DNA of 56,292 nt from a virus, in the IMG/VR virus record IMGVR_UViG_3300037847_000441, positions 1-56,292 of that record. The stretch is one strand, 5' to 3'. Made by a program: the position numbers and the translations under genes. Shown here piece after piece: positions 9,041 to 55,095 of this stretch. Positions within the stretch are counted from its first letter, which is position 1, and the number at the start of each line of letters is the position of its first letter. The notes under the pieces are model-generated. The model saw nothing but the letters and a program-made list of their open reading frames with translations, was not told the DNA's origin and did no database searches.

Positions 9041-9481
9041 TCATGCAGACCCTTTTGTTAAATTAAATGTAGGATCAAGATCTTTTGGATCAGGTACTCT
9101 CATACTAATTTGATCATCAAATAAAAGTATTAGACGAACACCTTTGTAAAAAAGCTTTGTTCCAGTATGTTTTCCATAGCATACATAGTCTCCTACATTA
9201 CACCATGCTCCATTTGGAAACTTATCTTTTTCACAATATGCTAGATCTCCCATTGCAAGAACCTGACCAACTGTGGTAAGATATGACATGTCTTCCCTTG
9301 TTGAGTCAGGAATAAAGATACCACCTTTAGTTTTACTTTTTACTGATACTGGACGAACTAGGACATGATATCCCGGTAAATCAGGTAGTGGTGATGGATC
9401 AGGTTTTTCTTCTGGATCAGTAATCCATAAATCATTTTTTAATGCCCCGCCCATTTGTACTTGTTGCATGTTATTCGTCAT
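9041..9481 (-). CDS. groES: GroES-like co-chaperonin
   Basis: 146 residues with a GroES (Cpn10) fold signature. YHVLVRPVSVKSKTKGGIFI (about residues 38-57) contains the mobile loop with the GG-hydrophobic-hydrophobic element that docks to GroEL. VGQVLAMGD and NVGDYVCYGKHTGTKLFYKG match the core beta barrel. A 35-residue acidic/Pro-rich N-terminal extension (DPEEKPDPSPLPDLPG) and a C-terminal tail make it longer than the usual 95-100 residues. Phage-encoded co-chaperonins (for example T4 gp31) adapt host GroEL to fold the capsid protein. Its location just before scaffold and capsid fits that job. It overlaps the upstream gene by 11 bases. Confidence 0.88.
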   Translation of the reverse strand: MTNNMQQVQMGGALKNDLWITDPEEKPDPSPLPDLPGYHVLVRPVSVKSKTKGGIFIPDSTREDMSYLTTVGQVLAMGDLAYCEKDKFPNGAWCNVGDYVCYGKHTGTKLFYKGVRLILLFDDQISMRVPDPKDLDPTFNLTKGSA

Positions 9482-29946: not shown

Positions 29947-31737
29947 ATGATTAAAGATGATATTACAATCTCTCCTGAGAGAGACAATCTTTTTGATGAG
30001 TTAGGGATCACTCGTCTCAAAGAGGCTTACATGATGGACGATGAGATCTCACCACAAGAGAGGTTTGCTTATGTATCTAGTTGTTTTGGTTCTGATAAAG
30101 AACATGCTCAAAGATTATATGAGTATGCTTCAAAACATTGGCTTTCGTATTCAACGCCTATACTATCGTATGGACGATCTAAACGTGGGCTTCCTATTTC
30201 TTGCTATCTTAATTATATTGATGATAGCTCTCAAGGGTTAGTGGAGAATTTAAGTGAGACTAATTGGCTTTCTATGCTTGGTGGTGGTGTTGGCGTTGGT
30301 TTTGGTATACGTTCATCCGATGATAAGTCCACCGGAGTTATGCCCCACCTCAAAATGTATGACGCATCCAGCCTAGCATACAGACAAGGTAGAACTCGTA
30401 GAGGTAGTTATGCTGCATATCTAGATATATCACATCCAGACATACTCATGTTTCTTGAGATGCGTAAACCAACTGGAGATCAAAACTTTCGTTGTCTTAA
30501 TATGCATCATGGTATTAATATATCAGATGAGTTTATGAGTGTTCTTGAACACTGCATGGTTAATCCATATGCTGATGATTCATGGGATCTAGTTGATCCG
30601 CATAGTAAAGAAGTACGTGATGTTGTTTCAGCTAAAGAACTTTGGCAACGGATACTTGAGATGCGTATGCAAACAGGTGAACCGTACCTACATTTTATAG
30701 ATAAGTCTAACGCTGAGATGCCAGCATGGTTAAAGCAGAAAGGTTTAAAAGTAAATCAATCTAATCTTTGCTCAGAGATTATTCTCCCTACATCAGAAGA
30801 CAGGACTGCCGTATGCTGCTTGTCATCTGTTAATTTAGAATACTTTGATGAGTGGTCAAAAGATAAAATGTTTTTACCAGATACTCTGGAGATGCTAGAT
30901 AATGTTTTGGAAAATTTTATTCTCAACGCTCCTGATACTATTCGTCGTGCTCGTTATAGTGCGAAACAAGAGCGCAGTGTCGGAGTGGGAGCACTTGGAT
31001 TTCACGCATATCTACAGAGCAAAGGTGTCCCATTTGATTGTGCGTTAGCTAAGTCTCACAACATTAGAATGTTTAAACATATTAGAGAAGGTTTAGATCA
31101 AGCTAATAGAAGTTTAGCTTTAGTGCGAGGTGAGGCTCCTGATGCTGTAGGTACAGGACTAAGGTGTAGTCATGTTATGGCTATTGCACCTAATGCTTCT
31201 AGCTCTATTATCATGGGCAATACTTCTCCATCAATAGAACCTTGGAGAGCTAATGCTTATAGACAAGATACTCTTAGTGGATCTTTCTTAAATAAAAACA
31301 AGTTCTTAGATAGTATTATTAAGACTAAGTGTGAAGAAGATACTAAGCTAAACTATGATCGCATCTGGTCTAGTATCATAGCTAATGATGGTTCTGTGCA
31401 GCATCTTAGATGCTTATCATCTGAAGAGAAAGAGATATTTAAAACAGCTATGGAAATAGATCAGAGGTGGGTAATAGAACACGCATCAGACAGACAACAA
31501 TACATTGACCAATCACAATCTCTTAATGTATTCTTTAGACCTGATGCTGAGATTAAGTACTTACATGCTATACACTACATGGCATGGAAGAAAGGACTAA
31601 AGACTATGTACTATTGTCGTTCAGAAAAGATTGGTAAGGCTGACAAAGTTAGTCGTAAGATTGAGAGACAGATTATTAATGAGTTAGATATGGAAGCATT
31701 GGCATCTGGGGATGAGTGCCTTGCTTGTGAAGGATAA
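29947..31737 (+). CDS. nrdA: Ribonucleotide reductase class I, alpha subunit
   Basis: 596 residues, all key residues visible. Redox Cys C86 (GLPISCYLN), the radical-site triad N273/C275/E277 (SNLCSEI), the partner redox Cys C290 (AVCCLSS), the radical-transfer pair Y555/Y556 (TMYYCRS), and C-terminal C591/C594 (CLACEG) for reduction by thioredoxin or glutaredoxin. The N-terminal ATP cone of long bacterial NrdA is absent, so the enzyme should lack dATP shut-off. It converts NDPs to dNDPs for phage replication, with NrdB encoded 1.1 kb downstream beyond an inserted endonuclease gene. Confidence 0.95.
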   Translation: MIKDDITISPERDNLFDELGITRLKEAYMMDDEISPQERFAYVSSCFGSDKEHAQRLYEYASKHWLSYSTPILSYGRSKRGLPISCYLNYIDDSSQGLVENLSETNWLSMLGGGVGVGFGIRSSDDKSTGVMPHLKMYDASSLAYRQGRTRRGSYAAYLDISHPDILMFLEMRKPTGDQNFRCLNMHHGINISDEFMSVLEHCMVNPYADDSWDLVDPHSKEVRDVVSAKELWQRILEMRMQTGEPYLHFIDKSNAEMPAWLKQKGLKVNQSNLCSEIILPTSEDRTAVCCLSSVNLEYFDEWSKDKMFLPDTLEMLDNVLENFILNAPDTIRRARYSAKQERSVGVGALGFHAYLQSKGVPFDCALAKSHNIRMFKHIREGLDQANRSLALVRGEAPDAVGTGLRCSHVMAIAPNASSSIIMGNTSPSIEPWRANAYRQDTLSGSFLNKNKFLDSIIKTKCEEDTKLNYDRIWSSIIANDGSVQHLRCLSSEEKEIFKTAMEIDQRWVIEHASDRQQYIDQSQSLNVFFRPDAEIKYLHAIHYMAWKKGLKTMYYCRSEKIGKADKVSRKIERQIINELDMEALASGDECLACEG

Positions 31738-33858: not shown

Positions 33859-34075
33859 AGAACACTTACAAGAAGTAAAAATGTCTTATTGGAAACACTT
33901 TTGGTTTGCATTAAGTATGATTCCTTATCTATTTTTTGCTATGATATTTTCAATAATACATGCAATAGTGCCGGGACTTTTTTCAGAAACTACAAGTGCT
34001 ATTATTGATGAGTTAAGATTTAAACTATCTAAAAATAAAATAGCTGATACAGTGCCAAGTAAAAAAAGTTCTTGA
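33842..34075 (+). CDS. Small membrane protein, DUF6356-like (77 aa)
   Basis: Start at ATG 33842 (MFGQTKEHLQEVKMSYWKHF) with AAGGAG about 9 bases upstream inside the nrdB end; the longer frame has no ribosome site. SYWKHFWFALSMIPYLFFAM followed by IIHAIVPGLFSETTSAIIDE contains one or two membrane helices and the HA-x-x-P-G-LF pattern that I associate with DUF6356. Function unknown. Confidence 0.6.
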   Translation: MFGQTKEHLQEVKMSYWKHFWFALSMIPYLFFAMIFSIIHAIVPGLFSETTSAIIDELRFKLSKNKIADTVPSKKSS

Positions 34076-34100
34076 CAAATGGGTTATAATATAGTATAAT
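34072..34100 (+). promoter_or_regulatory. Consensus sigma70 promoter for hsp20
   Basis: TTGACA (34072-34077), exactly 17 bases, TATAAT (34095-34100): a perfect consensus promoter. A second TATAAT lies at 34085-34090. It drives only the small heat-shock gene, which is followed by a terminator. The best promoter found in the window. Confidence 0.85.
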
Positions 34101-34156: not shown

Positions 34157-34579
34157 ATGTTTCCATATACAGATTCAATGGTAAAAAACTTTTTAGAAAA
34201 CTCAATAGGATTTGATAGTCTGTTATACGGTCTGAAAGAGCAGACCACTCAGTATCCACCTTATGATATTGTTAAACACTCTGATACTTCCTATGAGATT
34301 ACACTAGCACTTGCTGGTCTTTCTAAAGAAGACATTTCTGTAATACAAGAAAAAAATAATGTTACTATATCTAATAATAAAAAAGTAGATGATGTAGGTG
34401 CTACTGTAGATAAAAAATATATACATAAAGGTATTGCTAAAAGACCATTTACAAAGAAGTTCTCACTACTACAAAATGCCATTGTAAGTGATGTATCTTT
34501 TGAGGATGGTCTGTTAACATTACACATTAACATTGTAGTTCCTGAAGAAGAGAAACCCAAACAAATAGAAATACAATAG
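34157..34579 (+). CDS. Small heat-shock protein (Hsp20/alpha-crystallin)
   Basis: 140 residues. The N-terminal arm (FPYTDSMVKNFLENSIGFDS) is followed by the alpha-crystallin domain (SYEITLALAGLSKEDISVIQ, YIHKGIAKRPFTKKFSL, VSDVSFEDGLLTLHINIVVP) and a C-terminal I-E-I motif used for oligomer contacts. It resembles IbpA and the Hsp20-like proteins of cyanophages. An ATP-independent holdase, probably protecting phage or host proteins during infection. AAGGAG before the ATG, a consensus promoter upstream and a terminator right after indicate strong independent expression. Confidence 0.92.
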   Translation: MFPYTDSMVKNFLENSIGFDSLLYGLKEQTTQYPPYDIVKHSDTSYEITLALAGLSKEDISVIQEKNNVTISNNKKVDDVGATVDKKYIHKGIAKRPFTKKFSLLQNAIVSDVSFEDGLLTLHINIVVPEEEKPKQIEIQ

Positions 34580-34586
34580 AACTATG

Positions 34587-34615
34587 GAGGGGTGGGTAAA
34601 ACCACCTCTCTTTTT
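34587..34615 (+). terminator. Intrinsic terminator after hsp20
   Basis: GAGGGGTGG (34587-34595) pairs with CCACCTCTC (34602-34610), loop GTAAAA, followed by TTTTT. Nine pairs, one G-T. A textbook rho-independent terminator 7 bases after the stop codon. Confidence 0.85.
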
Positions 34616-34626
34616 CTGGAGAAACC

Positions 34627-35397
34627 ATGAGAAAAGCACCTAACACAGTTTACATAGGCTATGATCCTAAAGAACAAGTAGCCTATGATGTTTTAAAATT
34701 TACGATAGAACGTATCTCTGTTGAGAATGTTCGTATAGTTCCTATAAAAAAAGATATTTTAGAACTTAATGGTATGTATACAAGGACATATACTACTGTT
34801 GATGGACAACAGATAGATGATATAGATAAAAAACCTTTTTCTAGTGAGTTTAGTTTTACACGTTTTCTTGTACCAGCCATGAACATGTATGAGGGTTGGG
34901 CATTATACATGGACTGTGACATGTATCCACGTATAGATATTAATAATTTATTTGAAGAATATAATTTAGACTATTATCCTTTATATTGTGTAAAACATAA
35001 ATATGAACCGGGTGATGGTTTTAAAATGGATGGCAGAGTTCAACAAAACTATCGTAGAAAAAACTGGTCTAGTTTTATTCTTTGGAATTGTAGTCATCCT
35101 CTCAATAAAAATTTAACACCAGAAGTTGTTAATACTCAGACAGGCCAGTGGCTTCATGCTTTTGGTTGGTTGCCAGACAAAGAAGCTGACATTGGTTCTA
35201 TACACGAAGAATGGAACTGGTTAGACAACCACTCACCTGAAGAGATTGAAGCTAAGAATGTACACTTTACTACAGGTGGTCCTTGGTTTAAAGGATGGAC
35301 TTCTAGTAGAAAAATTGATGGTCAGTATGCAGCAGAATGGAACGCTGATTACACTTACCTTGCAGGAACAGGACAGATAAAACCTTATGAAATATAA
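34627..35397 (+). CDS. Glycosyltransferase-like protein (GT-A fold)
   Basis: 256 residues. VYIGYDPKEQVAYDVLKFTI at the N-terminus, then LVPAMNMYEGWALYMDCDMY with a D-x-D metal/nucleotide-sugar motif (D96, D98). GQWLHAFGWLPD and a C-terminal HFTTGGPWFKGW follow. This resembles GT8-like transferases common in marine phages and large viruses. It probably adds a sugar from an activated donor to a virion or host surface target. It is the first gene after the hsp20 terminator and overlaps the fusion gene by 11 bases, so the two are co-translated. Confidence 0.78.
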   Translation: MRKAPNTVYIGYDPKEQVAYDVLKFTIERISVENVRIVPIKKDILELNGMYTRTYTTVDGQQIDDIDKKPFSSEFSFTRFLVPAMNMYEGWALYMDCDMYPRIDINNLFEEYNLDYYPLYCVKHKYEPGDGFKMDGRVQQNYRRKNWSSFILWNCSHPLNKNLTPEVVNTQTGQWLHAFGWLPDKEADIGSIHEEWNWLDNHSPEEIEAKNVHFTTGGPWFKGWTSSRKIDGQYAAEWNADYTYLAGTGQIKPYEI

Positions 35398-37768
35398 AGT
35401 AGTTACATGTTTTGATGAAACATTACTAAAACTTAATGGATCAAAACTAATAGAGCAGTTTGCCTCAAGCTGGCAACCTAGCATAGATTTTCATTGTTAT
35501 TATTATAATTTAGATTTATCTAATTATTCTTTACCTAAGAAAAAGAATATTTATTATCATAATCTAAATGATATAGATGGCTTCTCTGAGTTTATGGAGC
35601 GTAATAAAACTCATGATGGTACAGAGGGCGGCAGTGTTCAGTATAATTCTATCATTGATGTTACATCAGAGGGACCAAAAGTATTTGCCATAAGTGAAGA
35701 GGCATTTAAAGATAACGACTCTTGGTTGTTTTGGTTAGATGCTAACTGCTGCACAGTAAGAGACATAAGATTAAATAGTTTAAAAGCTATCTTTAGTGAT
35801 GACTCTAATGCATTGTCCCTAGCTTTAGTTGAGCATAGAAATCATTTTGCTGGTTTTAATTTACAAAGCCAATCTGTTGTAGAACTTCTTGCAGACGTAA
35901 AAGGAGCGTATATTACAGATAGATTTACAGATTATAGAGAGTGGGGATTTAACTTTATACTAGGTTCAATACTACCTCTCTACCAAGCACGAGGTTTAAA
36001 TTATAAATTATTTACAGAAAATGGTATTAGTGTATTAAATAATTTATTCGTAGATTTACGTGACCCTGCATCTAGAAAACTTAGAGATGCAAAAGGTAAT
36101 AGAATAGTTCCTCTATCTGATAAAGAAACATCACCAGATATCTTACCGGGAAGATACAAACAACTTGCAGATATAGTTAGGCACTACAAACCACAGACTA
36201 TCTTAGAGACAGGAACATGGAATGGCGGTAGAGCTATAGAGATGTCTCTTGCTGCTTTTGAAAAGTCAGATAAAGTTCACTACATTGGTTATGATTTATT
36301 TGAAGATGCTACACCAGAGATAGATCAAGAAGAGTTTAACTCTAAAGCTCACAATACTTTAGCTGCTGTTGAAGCTAGACTAACAGAGTTTCAAGAGTTT
36401 GTTAAAAAAGAAAGACAAAAAGATTTTAGTTTTGAGTTAACTAAGGGTAATGTTAAAGATGTACTCAATATTAAAGCAGATAATGATATTGATTTTGCTC
36501 TCATTGGTAGTGGTAATAGCTTCAATACTGTAGAGTATGAATATAATACTTTAAAAGATATACCTGTTGTTGTTGCAGATCATTACTTTACAAAAGATGA
36601 AGCAGAAGAAATACCACCTGATGCCTATCAAGGTGTCAACCAAGTATTTAAAGCTGTCCCTACAAAAAAAGTAGAGACAGATGAAGTACCAGACGTAGAT
36701 GGATGGGTTACATTTGATGATGCAGCTACCACTAGAAAATATGTGCTTCCCTCTAGTGATAGAGTTCTTGGCGGTGGCACTACACACTTAGCTGTATTCT
36801 TACATGATCCTGATTTAAAAGATCTTCCAGAAGATGTTAAACGTGTTCCTATCGTAGTTCATCCTAGAGATTGTGTACCTAAAGATTATATTGTAAGTAA
36901 TATACAAACCAATATAAAAATGATAGGAGAAGACAACTGGGTATCTAAACACCCTCCTCATAGAGAAGTGGGTATTGTTGTATCTGCTGGCCCCTACTTA
37001 GATTGTGTAGCTCTAAAAGAGTTTATGCACACATATTTAGCAAGAGGTATTAGACCTAAAATACTAGCTGTTAAACATGCTTATCCTACTCTATTAAAGA
37101 ATGGTATAATACCGTGGGGATGTATTGTTCTAGATCCTCGTTCAATAGAAGGTAAGAGCACACACAATATTGTGCGTAAAGATTTGTTTAAAGATATAAA
37201 TAAAGAAACTTTATTCTTTGTTGCCTCTATGACAGATCCCTCTGTTACTAAACATATTAGAGATGGTAATGGTAAAATATGGGGATGGCATGCTTTTACA
37301 GACTTCATGAGACAAGAACAAGAACGAGGCACACAGATAATAAATCAAACTGTGCAGCTTAACGAAGAGTTAGGTATACCGCAAGGTGCTACATTAATTA
37401 CAGGTGGCACTTGTGCGGCTATGCGTGGTATTGGCTTAATGCACACGATGGGCTTTAGAGAGATACATCTCTTTGGCTTTGATTGCTGTCGTGAAGAACC
37501 AACAGCAGAAGAAAAGACAGAAACTACAGGTGATATAGAGGGTGGTGAAACACCTAAACCTAAATATATACAGGTCAATGTAGGAGACGTTACTTACTGG
37601 ACTACAGGTGAGCTTTTAGCTATGGCGCAAGACTGTGAAAAAGTATTTGATGATCCCGGTCTTGACGGTGTATTAGAGTTTCATGGTGAAAATACAATGA
37701 TATCAGCCTTGTGGGATATTAAACAAAGTAAGGAGAAGCGTCCAGCGTTTAAAGATTATTATGATTGA
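35387..37768 (+). CDS. Three-domain fusion: glycosyltransferase-like, SAM methyltransferase, DUF115
   Basis: 793 residues. Residues 1 to about 230 look like a glycosyltransferase-type domain (YKVVTCFDETLLKLNGSKLI; WLFWLDANCC in the place of D-x-D). About 250-440 is a class I methyltransferase-like domain with the SAM loop ILETGTWNGG (near 272) and YIGYDLFED. About 525-780 is a DUF115 (Maf/MptE-like) domain, shown by VVSAGPYLDC and ITGGTCAAMRGIGLMHTMG followed by FGFDCC. DUF115 proteins include Maf factors for flagellin glycosylation. All three domains seem intact. I infer a protein- or glycan-modifying enzyme; substrate unknown. Confidence 0.72.
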   Translation: MKYKVVTCFDETLLKLNGSKLIEQFASSWQPSIDFHCYYYNLDLSNYSLPKKKNIYYHNLNDIDGFSEFMERNKTHDGTEGGSVQYNSIIDVTSEGPKVFAISEEAFKDNDSWLFWLDANCCTVRDIRLNSLKAIFSDDSNALSLALVEHRNHFAGFNLQSQSVVELLADVKGAYITDRFTDYREWGFNFILGSILPLYQARGLNYKLFTENGISVLNNLFVDLRDPASRKLRDAKGNRIVPLSDKETSPDILPGRYKQLADIVRHYKPQTILETGTWNGGRAIEMSLAAFEKSDKVHYIGYDLFEDATPEIDQEEFNSKAHNTLAAVEARLTEFQEFVKKERQKDFSFELTKGNVKDVLNIKADNDIDFALIGSGNSFNTVEYEYNTLKDIPVVVADHYFTKDEAEEIPPDAYQGVNQVFKAVPTKKVETDEVPDVDGWVTFDDAATTRKYVLPSSDRVLGGGTTHLAVFLHDPDLKDLPEDVKRVPIVVHPRDCVPKDYIVSNIQTNIKMIGEDNWVSKHPPHREVGIVVSAGPYLDCVALKEFMHTYLARGIRPKILAVKHAYPTLLKNGIIPWGCIVLDPRSIEGKSTHNIVRKDLFKDINKETLFFVASMTDPSVTKHIRDGNGKIWGWHAFTDFMRQEQERGTQIINQTVQLNEELGIPQGATLITGGTCAAMRGIGLMHTMGFREIHLFGFDCCREEPTAEEKTETTGDIEGGETPKPKYIQVNVGDVTYWTTGELLAMAQDCEKVFDDPGLDGVLEFHGENTMISALWDIKQSKEKRPAFKDYYD

Positions 37769-38441
37769 ATATAATGAAGAATATAGTAGAGATAATACAT
37801 CTCAAAGATATAAAGATCTACTAAAAGAATATGAAAAGTTACATGCATATAGTGAAGGTATGTTTAACGGTAGAAGTTTAGTAAGATTTGCTGGACCACT
37901 TGAACAAATAATTAACAAACATAAGTGTGAAACACTGCTAGATTATGGTTGTGGTAAAGGACATCCTTACACAGATAAGTTTCATACAGTTCCTGACTCT
38001 GATTTCTTAGATAAACCAATACATGAGTTTTGGGGTATAAAAGATATCACTTTGTATGATCCCGGTGAAGAAGAACATAGTAAGTTACCAACTGGTGTTT
38101 ATGATATTGTAATATGCACTGATGTTTTAGAACATGTGCCACATCAAGATCTTACTTGGGTTATTGATGAGATATTTAAATACTCTACAAACGTAGTATT
38201 TCTTAACATATGTTGTCTACCTGCTATGAAACATTTCCCTAATGGTGAGAATGTTCATGTATCATTATATCCTGTTGAAGAATGGCTGCAATTTATTGCT
38301 AGATTATCTATGGATTATCCATATCTAACTATCTATGTTTATGCAGATGATGAAGATAATGATAAGAAGCGTTTAAATGCTTATAAAATAATACCAAGAC
38401 CTACAATTATACCATTAAAAACTAAGCCTAAAAAAGAATGA
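37761..38441 (+). CDS. SAM-dependent methyltransferase
   Basis: 226 residues. LLDYGCGKGHPY (about residues 60-71) is the SAM-binding glycine loop, and YDIVICTDVLEHVPHQDL is the following acidic/hydrophobic motif of Methyltransf_11/12-type enzymes. The start overlaps the fusion gene by 8 bases and the stop overlaps the SET gene, so four genes form one coupled cassette. No DNA-methylase motif (DPPY) is present, so small-molecule, sugar or protein methylation is more likely. Confidence 0.82.
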   Translation: MIEYNEEYSRDNTSQRYKDLLKEYEKLHAYSEGMFNGRSLVRFAGPLEQIINKHKCETLLDYGCGKGHPYTDKFHTVPDSDFLDKPIHEFWGIKDITLYDPGEEEHSKLPTGVYDIVICTDVLEHVPHQDLTWVIDEIFKYSTNVVFLNICCLPAMKHFPNGENVHVSLYPVEEWLQFIARLSMDYPYLTIYVYADDEDNDKKRLNAYKIIPRPTIIPLKTKPKKE

Positions 38442-38758
38442 CTGTATTAAGATACAATAGATTTTATTATGATCCTCTACCTAGTAATGTTAAGATAAAA
38501 AAGAGTGACATACACGGATATGGTATCTTTGCAAAAGAAGATATTAAATCTAAAACAGATTTAGGATCTACACATATTAAATATCCCATGATTGTAGGCT
38601 ATGTAAGAACCCCTATGGGTGGTTTTATAAATCACTCAGAGAAACCAAACTGTCATTTAATTATATCTCAAGATTGGGATGACTTTATAATTTATAACGT
38701 AGTAACACATAAAAAAATATTAAAAGATGAAGAAATACTTTTAGACTATGAAGTGTAA
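38438..38758 (+). CDS. SET-domain protein (lysine methyltransferase-like)
   Basis: 106 residues, a minimal SET domain: KKSDIHGYGIFAKEDIKS (opening motif), GGFINHSEKPNC (the N-H-S motif at about 65-67 that binds SAM and forms the pseudoknot), and KDEEILLDYEV (the E-E-I-x-x-D-Y closing motif). Pre-SET and post-SET cysteine regions are missing. Such mini-SET proteins occur in some phages and large viruses, and relatives methylate lysines. In this genome the abundant Lys-rich late proteins are conceivable targets, but this is speculation. Confidence 0.85.
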   Translation: MTVLRYNRFYYDPLPSNVKIKKSDIHGYGIFAKEDIKSKTDLGSTHIKYPMIVGYVRTPMGGFINHSEKPNCHLIISQDWDDFIIYNVVTHKKILKDEEILLDYEV

Positions 38759-38769
38759 GGAGTAACATA

Positions 38770-39174
38770 ATGTTAGGACTAGCAGATAGTGTTATAGGTG
38801 TAGCTGGTAAAGTTCTTGATAAGTTTGTAGAAGACAAAGACCTCAAGACTAAACTAGAGGCTGAACTAAAACAACAGATGATTAGCCTTGATCTTGCTCA
38901 AACACAAGCTAATATAGAGCAAGCTAAACACCCTTCTATCTTTGTAGCCGGAGCTAGACCTGCCATCATGTGGATATGTGCTCTAGGTCTTGGTTGGCAG
39001 TTTATTCTTGCACCTATATCTTCATGGATTATTATAACTTGGTATCCTACAGTAACATTACCTATGTTAGAAACAGGAGAACTAACAAGTCTTGTTCTTG
39101 CTCTTCTTGGTCTTGGCGGTATGCGTACAGCAGAGAAGTGGAAAGGTGTCCAAAGAGATAATATGAAACAATGA
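38770..39174 (+). CDS. Holin-like protein (GTA-type 3TM family)
   Basis: 134 residues. The N-terminal amphipathic helix (KTKLEAELKQQMISLDLAQT) ends at KHPSIFVAGARPAIMWICAL, the mark of the holin family that includes the gene-transfer-agent holin of alphaproteobacteria. Hydrophobic segments follow at about 59-77, 78-93 and 103-118. It should form inner-membrane lesions that release an endolysin. It is encoded rightward, while the M15 peptidase lies about 2.3 kb away on the other strand. Confidence 0.75.
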   Translation: MLGLADSVIGVAGKVLDKFVEDKDLKTKLEAELKQQMISLDLAQTQANIEQAKHPSIFVAGARPAIMWICALGLGWQFILAPISSWIIITWYPTVTLPMLETGELTSLVLALLGLGGMRTAEKWKGVQRDNMKQ

Positions 39175-39521
39175 AAGCAGGTAAAGTCTGGGGTCAAACA
39201 TCTACCATATTTCAAAATGGTGTATTTGAATTTCACCACATTATATTTAATAAAGGTAGTAAATGTAGTAAACATAAACACAAATATAAGTGGAATGGTT
39301 TCTATGTAACTAAAGGTCAGCTTATTATCAGAGTATGGAAGAATGACTATGATCTTGTAGATGAAACTATTCTAAATAAAGGTGAATGGACAACAGTAAA
39401 ACCCGGAGAATATCACCAGTTTGAAGCTATATCAGATGGTGAGGCTCTTGAATTATATTGGGCAGAGTTTGATCATAATGATATTGAACGTGAGACAGTA
39501 GGAGAATCTAGTGGCTCTTAA
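39171..39521 (+). CDS. Cupin-fold protein
   Basis: 116 residues with both cupin motifs. CSKHKHKYKWNGFYVTKGQL gives H-x-H and the following Gly, and VKPGEYHQFEA gives P-G-x-x-H. The FEFHHIIFNKG start and YWAEFD end complete a single beta barrel. Three His likely bind a metal. Substrate unknown; sugar-isomerase and dioxygenase functions are both possible. It overlaps the holin-like and small terminase genes. Confidence 0.75.
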   Translation: MKAGKVWGQTSTIFQNGVFEFHHIIFNKGSKCSKHKHKYKWNGFYVTKGQLIIRVWKNDYDLVDETILNKGEWTTVKPGEYHQFEAISDGEALELYWAEFDHNDIERETVGESSGS

Positions 39522-39978
39522 TGAAAAGCAAGAGAAGTTTGCACAGTCCTACATATTACATCGTAATGCTACAGAAGCTGCAAAGAATGCTGGTTATGCT
39601 CCTGACTCAGCAGCTAATCAGGGCTACCGTCTCATGCAGAATCAAGAGGTTGTTGATAGAGTTCACGAACTAGAGCAACAACTTGAAACAGATGTAGATG
39701 TTATAGGTGAATTAGAAAAGCAGTATGAGTTTGCTAAAAACAACGGTCACTCAAATAGTGCGCTCAAAGCGTTAGAATTATTATCTAGAATACGTGGTGC
39801 TAATAGTGATGTCAATTCGGGGTTAGATAAAGACACACTAGAAACAGCTATTGTTGGATGTCTTAATACATTAGGAGAAGATAAAGTTATTAATCTATTA
39901 CAGAAGTGTGACTTTGCAAGTAACATATTTGAAGAGGGGGATATAGAAGAAGATGCCAAGGAAATGGAAGGTGTATGA
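39511..39978 (+). CDS. terS: Terminase small subunit
   Basis: 155 residues from a GTG start (GTGGCTCTTAATGAAAAG) with AGGAG upstream. LNEKQEKFAQSYILHRNATE followed by AAKNAGYAPDSAANQGYRLM is the helix-turn-helix of the Terminase_2 family, with a helical oligomerisation segment (RVHELEQQLETDVD) next and an acidic tail. It recognises the packaging site and regulates TerL. Unusually it is about 25 kb from terL and on the opposite strand. Confidence 0.85.
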   Translation: MALNEKQEKFAQSYILHRNATEAAKNAGYAPDSAANQGYRLMQNQEVVDRVHELEQQLETDVDVIGELEKQYEFAKNNGHSNSALKALELLSRIRGANSDVNSGLDKDTLETAIVGCLNTLGEDKVINLLQKCDFASNIFEEGDIEEDAKEMEGV

Positions 39979-52068: not shown

Positions 52069-55000
52069 TTATTCATTTGTATGATACATTATAGAAAAAT
52101 ATAAATATCTACCTGTTCCTGCTGAGTGTTGCATTGCTACCCATACATTTGCACCTTCAAGAGTTCCATAAAATCTTAGTAATGTTGCTGATGCTATAAA
52201 TGGAGTAATATTTGCTGTGGTAGAATTAACATTAAAGGTTAGTTGAGACATAACATTACCTGTTGGAATAGTAAGATTTGGATCAAAAGGCATCCCGGTA
52301 ATTTGAACATGTCCAGCCGCACCTGTTGTGTTTACATTAGTAAAAAGCGCATGACAAAAGACAACATTACCAATTTTAGTATAAGCACCAGTTTGAGTTA
52401 CAGAAGTGCTTGGACCTGATGTTGAACCATCAAGTGTTGCAGTCCATGAGCCTTGTTCGTAGTCATCAAGGGCGTTGTTTGTAGAGGTATCACCATTAAA
52501 TGTTATACCACCTCCAGAAAGAAAACGTGCTTTTTCACCACCATTAACATTAAATCTCATGCTATCGCCGTTATGAGCGTAAACAATTTCACCAACAGTA
52601 TCTGAATCTGGATCACCAAAAGCAATCGTACTATTATAGTTAGTGGCAGCTTTTATAAGTTGTTGAGCATTACCTGTTGATTGAAGTTTAAGCTGATATC
52701 CAGCTACGCTTGAGTCGAGACTTGATCCCATATTTACTCTACCAGATGTATCAATACGCATACGCTCTGTGTTTCCAGTTAGAAGTCCAAGAGGTGTTGC
52801 ACTACCTGTACCATTAACTGTACCAACCCGACCAAGGCTACCTGTATTATCAATTAATGTTCTTGATGGCCCAGCACTAAAGTCTGATGATGCTCCTTTT
52901 GAGCCTATTGCTCCATTAACATTTAACGACTCAGTTCCATCAGTAGCATTAATTTGAATCTTTCCACTTACTGATACATCACCTTCAAACTCTGCTTTGC
53001 CTGTAGCTAAGAAAGTACCACCTACAGATGTATTACCAGCTATATTAACTGCACCACTTACTGATACAGCATCTTCAAAAGTTGCTGCACCTGCTACAGT
53101 TACAGTAGATGCTAAATGTGTTGCACCACCTACACTTAAAGTAGATGCAAGACTAACTGCACCTGCAACCGTTACTGTGCTACCAAAATTAGTAGCACCT
53201 CCTACACTTAATGTAGAGGCAAGTGAAACTGCACCTGCTACTGTAACAGTGCCATTAAGTTGAGAAGCACCACCTACAATTAATGCCCCACTAACAGATA
53301 CATCATCTTCAAATTCAGCTTTACCAGTATTAATTAATGTACCACCTATAGAAACATTACCAACTAAATTAGAGTTACCACTTACAGATATATCACTGTC
53401 AAACTCTACCTTATCTCCAAATGTTTTATTAACAAGAGTATTAGTTGTAGATGTCCCTACAAGAGTAACAGTTGTATTAGGAAGAGTAATTGTTATATTA
53501 CCAGCATAAGAAGCATGAGGTGGAGATCTTAATTCTGCATAGTGAGCATTAGCTGATTCACAATAAAATCTAATATTAGCAGGATCAGATGCACTTGTTT
53601 TAATTGTTATACGTCCACCTGATACAGATATTTCACCGCCAACTGTTAAAGCACTTACAGATATATCACCCTCTATAGATGTTGTAATACCAGATAAATT
53701 AGACCCATCACCATAATAAGCACTAGCACACACTCTAGCATTTGCTGCTTGTACATTATTACCAGCAATAGTTACAGTACTTAAAAAGTTTGCAGCACCT
53801 CCCACACTTAATGTAGAAGCTAGGCTAACTGCACCAGCAATAGTAGTAGTGCCGCCAATATTAACATTACCTGATACGGATACATCGTCTTCAAATTCAG
53901 CCTTACCTGTTGCTAAAAAAGTACCACCTATAGAAGTATTACCAGTTACATCTAAAGTTGATCCTAAACTTGTAGCTCCTGCTATTGTAACAGTGCTTGC
54001 AAAATTAGATGCACCTGCTACACTAAGAGTAGAAGCAAGTGAAACTGCTCCAGCTATTGTTACTGTACTAGCAAAATTAGATGCCCCTGCTACACTTAAA
54101 GTAGAAGCTAAACTAACTGCTCCTGCTATTGTAGTAGTTCCACCAATTCTAAGATTACCTGATACTGAAACATCATTTTTAAATGTAGAAGAACCTACTG
54201 CATTAAATGTGCCACTTACAGAAACTGCACCTCCAGCATTTATAAATCCAGAAACAGATATATTTGTTGTAACACCTAATTCTGCTTGTATATTAGTTAA
54301 ATTAGATCCATCACCATGAAATGCAGAAGCACATACTCTAGCATTAGTAGCTTGAATATTTGTACCAGCTATTGTAACTGACCCTCCTACATTTAAACCG
54401 CCTGATACAGATACGTCATCTTTAAATTTAGCAAGACCTCCTATACATGCAGAAGTAGCTACATCTAATCTACCACTTATAGAAACATCATTATTAAATG
54501 TTGCTTTAGATGTAAATGTACTTGCACCCTCTACATTAAATGTACCACTTACAGATACATTATTATTAAATATAGCTTCGCCTTCTACAGTTACTGTGCT
54601 ACCAAAATTAGCTGCCCCTGATACAGATACATCATCTTTAAATACAGCTTTACCTTCTACTGTAACTGTAGAACCAAAGTTTGCTGCACCACCTACCGTA
54701 ACAGTTGATTTTAAATGTGTAGCTCCCACTATAGTTGCAGTGCTAGATACTTGTAATGTACCACCTACTACAGCGTTGCTAACTGATATATTACCTGCTA
54801 TTACAGCAGTAACACCTGTTATATTTGAACCGTCTCCATAAAATGCAGAAGCACATACTCTGTCATCTACATGAAGATTACTATCAAGAGAAACAGAACC
54901 AGTAACTCCTAAAGCACCACTAACTTGTACAGCGTTAGTTGCTACTTTAAGTGCTGTATTAGTGCCATCTCCTGTTTGTATAGGTTTAAGAGATGTATCT

Positions 55001-55095
55001 ACACCTTCATTACTAACAGCAGAACTTACAAGTATAAGCTGTTTATAAGTATTTGAAATAAGTCTTCCTGTTAAATCTGTCATATTAGCTGCCAA
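52069..55095 (-). CDS. Long repetitive tail fibre (1008 aa)
   Basis: A start segment (ANMTDLTGRLISNTYKQLIL) and a long beta-repeat shaft of about residues 90-730. Its units alternate SVSG or TVTVAG strands with N-x-G-x-T turns, and it includes three VCASA(F/Y)(H/Y)GDGSN modules. The tip region (about 760-1008) has a different composition: RIDTSGRVNMGSSLDSSVAG, DYEQGSWTATLDGSTSGPST and GNVVFCHALFTNVNTT. The shaft is rich in Ser, Thr, Val and Gly. It probably binds the host surface as a trimer. Ser/Thr-dense sequence would be a natural target if the phage glycosyltransferase cassette acts on virions. Confidence 0.8.
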   Translation of the reverse strand: MAANMTDLTGRLISNTYKQLILVSSAVSNEGVDTSLKPIQTGDGTNTALKVATNAVQVSGALGVTGSVSLDSNLHVDDRVCASAFYGDGSNITGVTAVIAGNISVSNAVVGGTLQVSSTATIVGATHLKSTVTVGGAANFGSTVTVEGKAVFKDDVSVSGAANFGSTVTVEGEAIFNNNVSVSGTFNVEGASTFTSKATFNNDVSISGRLDVATSACIGGLAKFKDDVSVSGGLNVGGSVTIAGTNIQATNARVCASAFHGDGSNLTNIQAELGVTTNISVSGFINAGGAVSVSGTFNAVGSSTFKNDVSVSGNLRIGGTTTIAGAVSLASTLSVAGASNFASTVTIAGAVSLASTLSVAGASNFASTVTIAGATSLGSTLDVTGNTSIGGTFLATGKAEFEDDVSVSGNVNIGGTTTIAGAVSLASTLSVGGAANFLSTVTIAGNNVQAANARVCASAYYGDGSNLSGITTSIEGDISVSALTVGGEISVSGGRITIKTSASDPANIRFYCESANAHYAELRSPPHASYAGNITITLPNTTVTLVGTSTTNTLVNKTFGDKVEFDSDISVSGNSNLVGNVSIGGTLINTGKAEFEDDVSVSGALIVGGASQLNGTVTVAGAVSLASTLSVGGATNFGSTVTVAGAVSLASTLSVGGATHLASTVTVAGAATFEDAVSVSGAVNIAGNTSVGGTFLATGKAEFEGDVSVSGKIQINATDGTESLNVNGAIGSKGASSDFSAGPSRTLIDNTGSLGRVGTVNGTGSATPLGLLTGNTERMRIDTSGRVNMGSSLDSSVAGYQLKLQSTGNAQQLIKAATNYNSTIAFGDPDSDTVGEIVYAHNGDSMRFNVNGGEKARFLSGGGITFNGDTSTNNALDDYEQGSWTATLDGSTSGPSTSVTQTGAYTKIGNVVFCHALFTNVNTTGAAGHVQITGMPFDPNLTIPTGNVMSQLTFNVNSTTANITPFIASATLLRFYGTLEGANVWVAMQHSAGTGRYLYFSIMYHTNE
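52960..54840 (-). repeat. Degenerate DNA repeats encoding the fibre shaft
   Basis: Many imperfect direct repeats of about 60 to 130 bases. Blocks around 53100-53230 and 53990-54130 carry near copies of sequence for AGAVSLASTLSVAGASNFAS. The VCASA module DNA recurs at about 53698-53740, 54301-54343 and 54823-54865, and again in the next gene at about 51249-51290. These repeats allow unit gain or loss by recombination. Confidence 0.75.

Follow-up and report, generated by a model that had tools for sequence, protein, structure and literature searches.

A clade-wide block of glycosyltransferase, three-domain fusion and methyltransferase genes in marine bacterial viruses and its plausible role in protein modification

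The virus record IMGVR_UViG_3300037847_000441 of IMG/VR, analyzed over its whole length of 56,292 bases and referred to below as the window, carries a run of overlapping genes for sugar- and methyl-transferring enzymes. The locus raises the question of which of these genes belong together and what their products modify. The initial annotation described four overlapping genes, encoding a D-x-D glycosyltransferase (GT), a 793-residue fusion of glycosyltransferase-like, methyltransferase and DUF115 domains (FUS), a separate methyltransferase (MT) and a mini-SET domain (SET), and treated them as one protein-modifying set. The analysis presented here places three of them, GT, FUS and MT, in the conserved unit. 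With moderate confidence, these three are read as a cytoplasmic module that builds a glycan and caps it with methyl groups, the most likely acceptor being a phage virion protein.

All four open reading frames were confirmed (Table 1). They start with ATG, and successive genes overlap by 11 nt (GT/FUS), 8 nt (FUS/MT) and 4 nt (MT/SET). Neighborhoods were compared in loci gathered by means of FUS. Such a collection cannot tell how frequent FUS is, and closely related contigs do not count as independent; the neighbors, in turn, were unselected. Among the fetched loci, the best-segment identity of FUS to the window protein ranges from 100% down to 35%, with a median of 58%. GT lies directly 5' of FUS in all 136 viral-contig loci where this position is visible, MT directly 3' of it in 116 of 116, and a holin or terminase small subunit (TerS) gene comes next in 94 of 94. 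The overlap of GT and FUS measures 11 nt in 72 of 75 loci and that of FUS and MT 8 nt in 47 of 65, and these conserved overlaps suggest that the three genes are translationally coupled.

The ratio of nonsynonymous to synonymous substitution rates (dN/dS) is 0.09–0.23 for GT, FUS and MT, and 0.11, 0.25 and 0.14 for domains 1, 2 and 3 of FUS. Since IMG/VR holds hundreds of relatives and the genes are under purifying selection, the cassette is not a chance arrangement. When the terminase large subunit (TerL) was used as bait instead, FUS was present in eight of nine records of at least 50 kb, a count that leaves out two records (G010 and G011) chosen through FUS. The ninth record (G006) stops at its Hsp20 gene; it was considered as an empty site and set aside, because a contig that ends there is uninformative on the absence of the cassette. 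The TerL matches were the best 80, all with at least 80% identity; consequently, the status of a core element holds for that clade only. The conserved unit is therein GT, FUS and MT, three genes.

SET stands outside this unit. It matches PF00856 at 39.3 bits (cut-off 22.4) and keeps the IHGYG, FINHSxxPNC (NHS) and LLDYE (C-terminal Tyr) motifs. In contrast to the KMT2-type lysine methyltransferases that it resembles, it has no pre- or post-SET region and behaves as an optional passenger. The view that all four genes form one obligate protein-modifying system draws on the overlap with MT and on the close SET relatives, whose 15 loci include 13 in which SET adjoins the cassette and two that end early on the cassette side. 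Against it, only 12 of 116 loci have SET downstream of the cassette; in the other 104 it was not found there. PF00856 is present in the window-like records G000–G004, whereas the cassette-bearing long records G005 and G007–G011 gave no match to it, and in G006 the SET gene lies elsewhere, among early genes. The fetched flanks of 39 SET loci from viral contigs contain one or more cassette genes in 13 cases, whereas they lack GT, FUS and MT in the 24 with less than 60% identity. Isolated phages with a SET gene include Kolga, P-SSM7 and P-RSM6, and that of Kolga is located away from any GT, FUS or MT homologue. An obligate four-gene set is thus largely refuted and very improbable. The recurrence of the same gene set in other neighborhoods, for which the initial annotation proposed a search, is borne out for GT, FUS and MT, which are invariant, and fails for SET, which is optional and, judged by its sequence, probably an independent lysine methyltransferase. 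In the loci L267 and L268, SET is 84–86% identical to that of the window although FUS is more distantly related, a sign that subclades may have exchanged SET.

The individual enzymes can be assigned with different degrees of precision. GT matched no Pfam family at E 0.1, curated glycosyltransferase families included; it belongs to phrog_28018, a family of unknown function (2.4e-42). Its DxD motif, D96/D98, is invariant across 30 sequences. The AlphaFold2 model (predicted local distance difference test, pLDDT, 73) finds its best PDB matches in the catalytic domain of UGGT, LgtC, GlyE and glycogenin, with E-values down to 2e-8 and template modeling (TM) scores of about 0.5–0.6 against GT8/GT24 structures. 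The predicted fold is therefore that of a GT8/GT24-like GT-A enzyme, in agreement with the D-x-D glycosyltransferase first proposed. Sequence searches of solved structures yielded nothing useful for GT or FUS, the FUS profile giving chance-level matches only. MT was likewise correctly recognized as a methyltransferase: it matches Methyltransf_23 at 30 bits (cut-off 27), and its motif I residues D61, Y62, G63, G65 and K66 are invariant in the alignment.

FUS contains the three domains originally described. PF01973, known under the older names DUF115 and Maf_flag10, reaches 47.3 bits (cut-off 34.6) and is matched in 30 of 30 FUS members. The central domain matches Methyltransf_24 weakly in the window (E 0.013); the family is matched in 26 of 30 members, at best with 2.4e-5. 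Across 79 sequences, its LETGTWN-x-GRA (LETGTWNGGRA in the window), D303, GSGNS and DH elements are nearly or fully invariant; E274, G276, W278, N279 and G281 of motif I (ExGxxxG) do not vary, and neither does D303, which follows strand 2. The N-terminal domain is GT-A-like by its modeled fold alone. The structure model (pLDDT 77) has the Maf structure 5mu5 as its top Foldseek match, followed by O-methyltransferases, M. jannaschii HPPK (8sd5) and GT6-type enzymes, which include the metal-independent 4ayj. Profile alignment (hhalign) detected no similarity between GT and the FUS N-terminal domain or between MT and the FUS methyltransferase domain, that is, no internal duplication. In a tblastn search of 50,697 phage records, whole FUS was unmatched, and its three domains were unmatched even at E 1. 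The sole genome match in a cellular search belongs to a metagenome-assembled genome of Sneathiella, into which a phage-like contig had been binned. Database proteins annotated as MptE-like occur in uncultured phages; the best match (A0A6J7X5Q0, 26% identity) is annotated merely as methyltransferase domain containing.

The same parts are found elsewhere as separate genes. Profiles built here detected GT homologues in Mosig (4e-57), S-SCSM2R, ctDrO704, CcrSC, CcrColossus and DLP_6, and MT homologues adjoin GT in the last four. In ctDrO704, this pair is situated between capsid and stabilization genes. The Caulobacter jumbo phage CcrColossus has a cluster of MptE-like protein, GT, MT and GT9, flanked by a tail gene on one side and the endolysin and holin genes on the other; its gp126, near GT, matches a short stretch of PF01973 (1.5e-7) at 31.8 bits, just below the cut-off of 34.6. 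The Stenotrophomonas phage DLP_6 shows the order MT, MT, GT, GT29 sialyltransferase-like protein, GT. The clusters of CcrColossus, CcrSC and DLP_6 thus share adjacent GT and MT genes with the window, an MptE-like or sialyltransferase-like protein is present in those of CcrColossus and DLP_6, and the Caulobacter phage clusters lie beside tail and lysis genes. They differ in that their genes are separate, glycosyltransferases are more numerous and the three-domain fusion is missing; no functional description of these clusters was found. In the pelagiphage Mosig, a homologue of the FUS N-terminal domain (Mosig_00189, 1.5e-7) stands directly upstream of GT, accompanied by two annotated methyltransferases; such a homologue is present in 30 of 80 Mosig-type loci. 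As in the window, the cluster follows shortly after the ribonucleotide reductase (RNR) genes nrdA/nrdB, whereas Mosig-type phages are myoviruses (Kyanoviridae) and no DUF115 domain was detected in their cluster. Because the parts occur as separate adjoining genes in unrelated isolated phages, FUS looks like a fusion of components that act side by side elsewhere. One locus with a GT/MT cluster, L259 (Tetraselmis viridis virus S20), bears an algal host label, yet it encodes a phage portal protein and prohead protease; the label looks doubtful.

A close characterized comparison is Maf, which O-glycosylates flagellin and whose Maf_flag10 domain resembles the sialyltransferase Cst-II (PMC11339370). 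FUS shares with it the PF01973 domain, whereas GT-A-like and methyltransferase domains form the front of FUS in place of the N- and C-terminal domains that Maf has, and the alignment of FUS with 5mu5 reaches a TM score of only 0.22–0.27. A flagellin-type function, suggested initially by the DUF115 assignment, is not borne out: with PseD, the flagellin-modification model of NCBIfam, FUS reaches 19.6 bits, far short of the cut-off of 670, no flagellin or flagellar genes were found near the cassette, and all mapped loci have a phage gene context. In mycobacteriophages, predicted capsid glycosyltransferases have been proposed to modify a virion protein (PMC11256854); those phages infect other hosts, and the abstract reports no DUF115 fusion.

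For the module as a whole, we infer the following course of events. GT, as a retaining GT8/GT24-like enzyme with its DxD motif, would take a hexose-type sugar from a nucleotide-sugar of the host and transfer it, thereby priming or extending the glycan. The DUF115 domain of FUS, similar to the sialyltransferase-like core of Maf, would add a further sugar, while the GT-A-like N-terminal domain would hold or elongate the acceptor. Both methyltransferases, the one within FUS and MT itself, would then O-methylate, and so cap, the sugars. The module is probably translated from one overlapping run and expressed late with holin and terminase, a timing suggested by the linkage to holin and TerS. The glycosyltransferase is phage-encoded and linked to late genes, through this linkage in all loci counted and through the tail and lysis context in CcrColossus. 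The coupling of sugar and methyl transfer agrees with the initial annotation, given the invariant synteny, the conserved overlaps, the DxD motif of GT, the S-adenosylmethionine (SAM) motifs of FUS and the adjacency of the parts in unrelated phages; a protein-modifying role is plausible.

Several observations weigh against this account. D-G-x-H is the usual motif of Methyltransf_24-like enzymes, and FUS has GSGNS in its place. The DxD motif of the FUS N-terminal domain is not conserved across 79 sequences: position 118 is D or E and position 120 is variable. The window has W-L-D-A-N there, and the domain carries the motif WxWx[DE]. This domain may be catalytically dead. It is under purifying selection nonetheless and hence in use, either as another kind of enzyme or as a binding domain. 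The predicted TM score (pTM) of the FUS model is 0.49, so the relative placement of its domains is uncertain. The Foldseek matches to FUS come without residue ranges, and the GT6 matches were given to the N-terminal domain by alignment length and elimination; the pairing of matches with domains is thus partly deduced. That a virion protein is the acceptor is likewise something we infer. The Ser/Thr-dense fibre (52069–55095), to which the initial annotation pointed as a target, contains 24.5% Ser/Thr compared with a mean of 12.5%, but it is no evidence for a target because tail proteins of cassette-lacking phages are similarly rich (23–28% in HTVC023P, 21% in the CRP-901 fibre). Finally, pelagiphage glycosyltransferases have been read as modifying lipopolysaccharide (LPS), although glycosyltransferase and methyltransferase genes of pelagiphages have also been read as serving protein or DNA modification (PMC9599517).

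The main rival of a virion protein acceptor is that the module acts on a host surface glycan, such as LPS O-antigen or capsule, and thereby blocks superinfection or the adsorption of progeny to debris. Such a role is a real but less probable possibility. It is in line with the interpretation of glycosyltransferases of pelagic myophages as LPS-modifying (PMC9599517) and with the GT/MT clusters of phage LC06 and CcrColossus, which stand beside heptosyltransferase-like or capsule-like genes. However, the cassette is a core element joined to the late holin and TerS genes, related clusters sit among capsid, tail and lysis genes, and no flippase, polymerase or acetyltransferase was found among the Pfam-scanned window genes. 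Two other targets are much less probable. The PF01973 domain might work as the archaeal MptE does, pyrophosphorylating a pterin or another small molecule, with the block making a modified metabolite. The Pfam family name and the shared fold of M. jannaschii HPPK (8sd5, TMt 0.54), an archaeal MptE/6-hydroxymethylpterin diphosphokinase, speak in its favor. This role is nevertheless improbable: the domain is fused to and flanked by glycosyltransferase and methyltransferase domains, partners found here in place of any pterin context, the whole protein has its best match in the Maf structure, and pterin or folate genes were not found among the scanned genes.

Phage glycosyltransferases can also glucosylate DNA, as in T4, and hypermodified or glycosylated bases of the phage DNA might be the product. 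HTVC023P-type phages, moreover, carry genes for DNA hypermodification (PMC9599517). This target is highly unlikely, since no base-hypermodification gene (thymidylate synthase, dCMP hydroxymethylase, base kinase or 2OG-oxygenase) was found among the Pfam-scanned window genes, and GT and FUS resemble GT8/GT24, Maf and GT6 enzymes rather than DNA glucosyltransferases. An anti-phage defence system was rejected as well, PADLOC matching none of the four proteins.

Table 1. Features of the gene run and its surroundings in the window
Feature	Position	Strand	Basis
Sigma-70-like promoter match TTGACA-17-TATAAT, 5' of Hsp20	34072..34100	+	12/12 consensus match only, not evidence of function
Hsp20 small heat-shock protein	34157..34579	+	Pfam HSP20 7.9e-14
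Terminator-like hairpin with T tail, between Hsp20 and GT	34586..34611	+	10-bp stem, 6 GC pairs
GT, GT8/GT24-like (GT-A) glycosyltransferase, 256 aa (predicted fold)	34627..35397	+	phrog_28018, fold matches, DxD
FUS, three-domain fusion (GT-A-like + methyltransferase + MptE/DUF115), 793 aa	35387..37768	+	Pfam, alignment, model
FUS domain 1, GT-A-like by modeled fold, residues ~1-235	35387..36091	+	GT6 fold matches; stand-alone homologues
FUS domain 2, class I SAM methyltransferase, residues ~240-445	36104..36721	+	Motifs, Methyltransf_24
FUS domain 3, PF01973 MptE-like/DUF115/Maf_flag10, residues 505-702	36899..37492	+	Pfam 2.5e-12; Foldseek 5mu5, 8sd5
MT, class I methyltransferase, 226 aa	37761..38441	+	Methyltransf_23 5.2e-7; phrog_24759 1e-16
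SET, mini-SET domain, 106 aa, optional accessory	38438..38758	+	PF00856 9.1e-10; KMT2 SET matches
Holin (GTA_holin_3TM), late lysis gene downstream	38770..39174	+	Profile matches
Cupin protein, same overlapping run	39171..39521	+	Cupin_2 8.1e-8; found in part of clade only
TerS, end of overlapping run	39511..39978	+	Terminase_2 1.2e-15

The run continues past SET after a gap of 11 nt with holin, followed by cupin and TerS, these two again overlapping. On the other side, Hsp20 is found upstream of the cassette in 97 of 124 loci, and the terminator-like hairpin that follows it adjoins the ribosome-binding site of GT. With a promoter match before it and this hairpin after it, Hsp20 may form a transcription unit of its own, and it probably lies outside the modification chemistry.

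Pfam scans of the window show genes for terminase, portal, capsid, primase-helicase, DNA polymerase and RNR. The nearest portal proteins, at about 40% identity, are those of phage DSL-LC04, the pelagiphages HTVC023P and HTVC027P and the Roseobacter phages CRP-901 and CRP-902. No FUS or GT homologues were found in HTVC023P (complete genome) or CRP-901 (first 49 kb of 53 kb). The cassette-bearing viruses are a widespread, uncultured group of marine bacterial viruses, and their clade is podovirus-like. The window also encodes two well-separated SU10-adaptor-like proteins (PF24175; 4810–5490 and 55355–56029) and, close to the portal gene, a GroES/Cpn10-like co-chaperonin (9041–9481); an annotated GroES is present in HTVC023P and CRP-901 too. 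In most of the clade, the best match to the RNR large subunit of the window (29947–31737) reaches an identity of just about 23%, compared with 60–80% for adjoining genes, which suggests a swap of RNR type. Among the mapped loci, nrdB is restricted to window-like loci, L012, L051 and L076.

Glycosyltransferase and methyltransferase genes of phages are already known, while the three-in-one fusion FUS appears to be undescribed. As far as the searchable literature goes, no paper on the GT-A/methyltransferase/DUF115 fusion or the conserved block was found, in keeping with the initial annotation, which knew of no described phage system with this set; the few matches for DUF115 or MptE-like with phage included no relevant paper, and no phage SET study was found by title. 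A clade-wide, invariantly linked block represents a selected enzyme set and not a passing auxiliary gene. FUS joins parts that are separate in Caulobacter phages and pelagiphages, and it can therefore assist function prediction for phage genes annotated as MptE-like, FkbM-like or hypothetical. It is tentatively proposed that the virus particle bears a methylated glycan, placed there by a Maf-type protein O-glycosyltransferase that is fused to a methyl-capping enzyme of its own. If true, the virion would have its equivalent of the flagellin glycosylation of bacteria, and glycan coats on decorated virions could alter how particles adsorb, how stable they are and how hosts or grazers recognize them.

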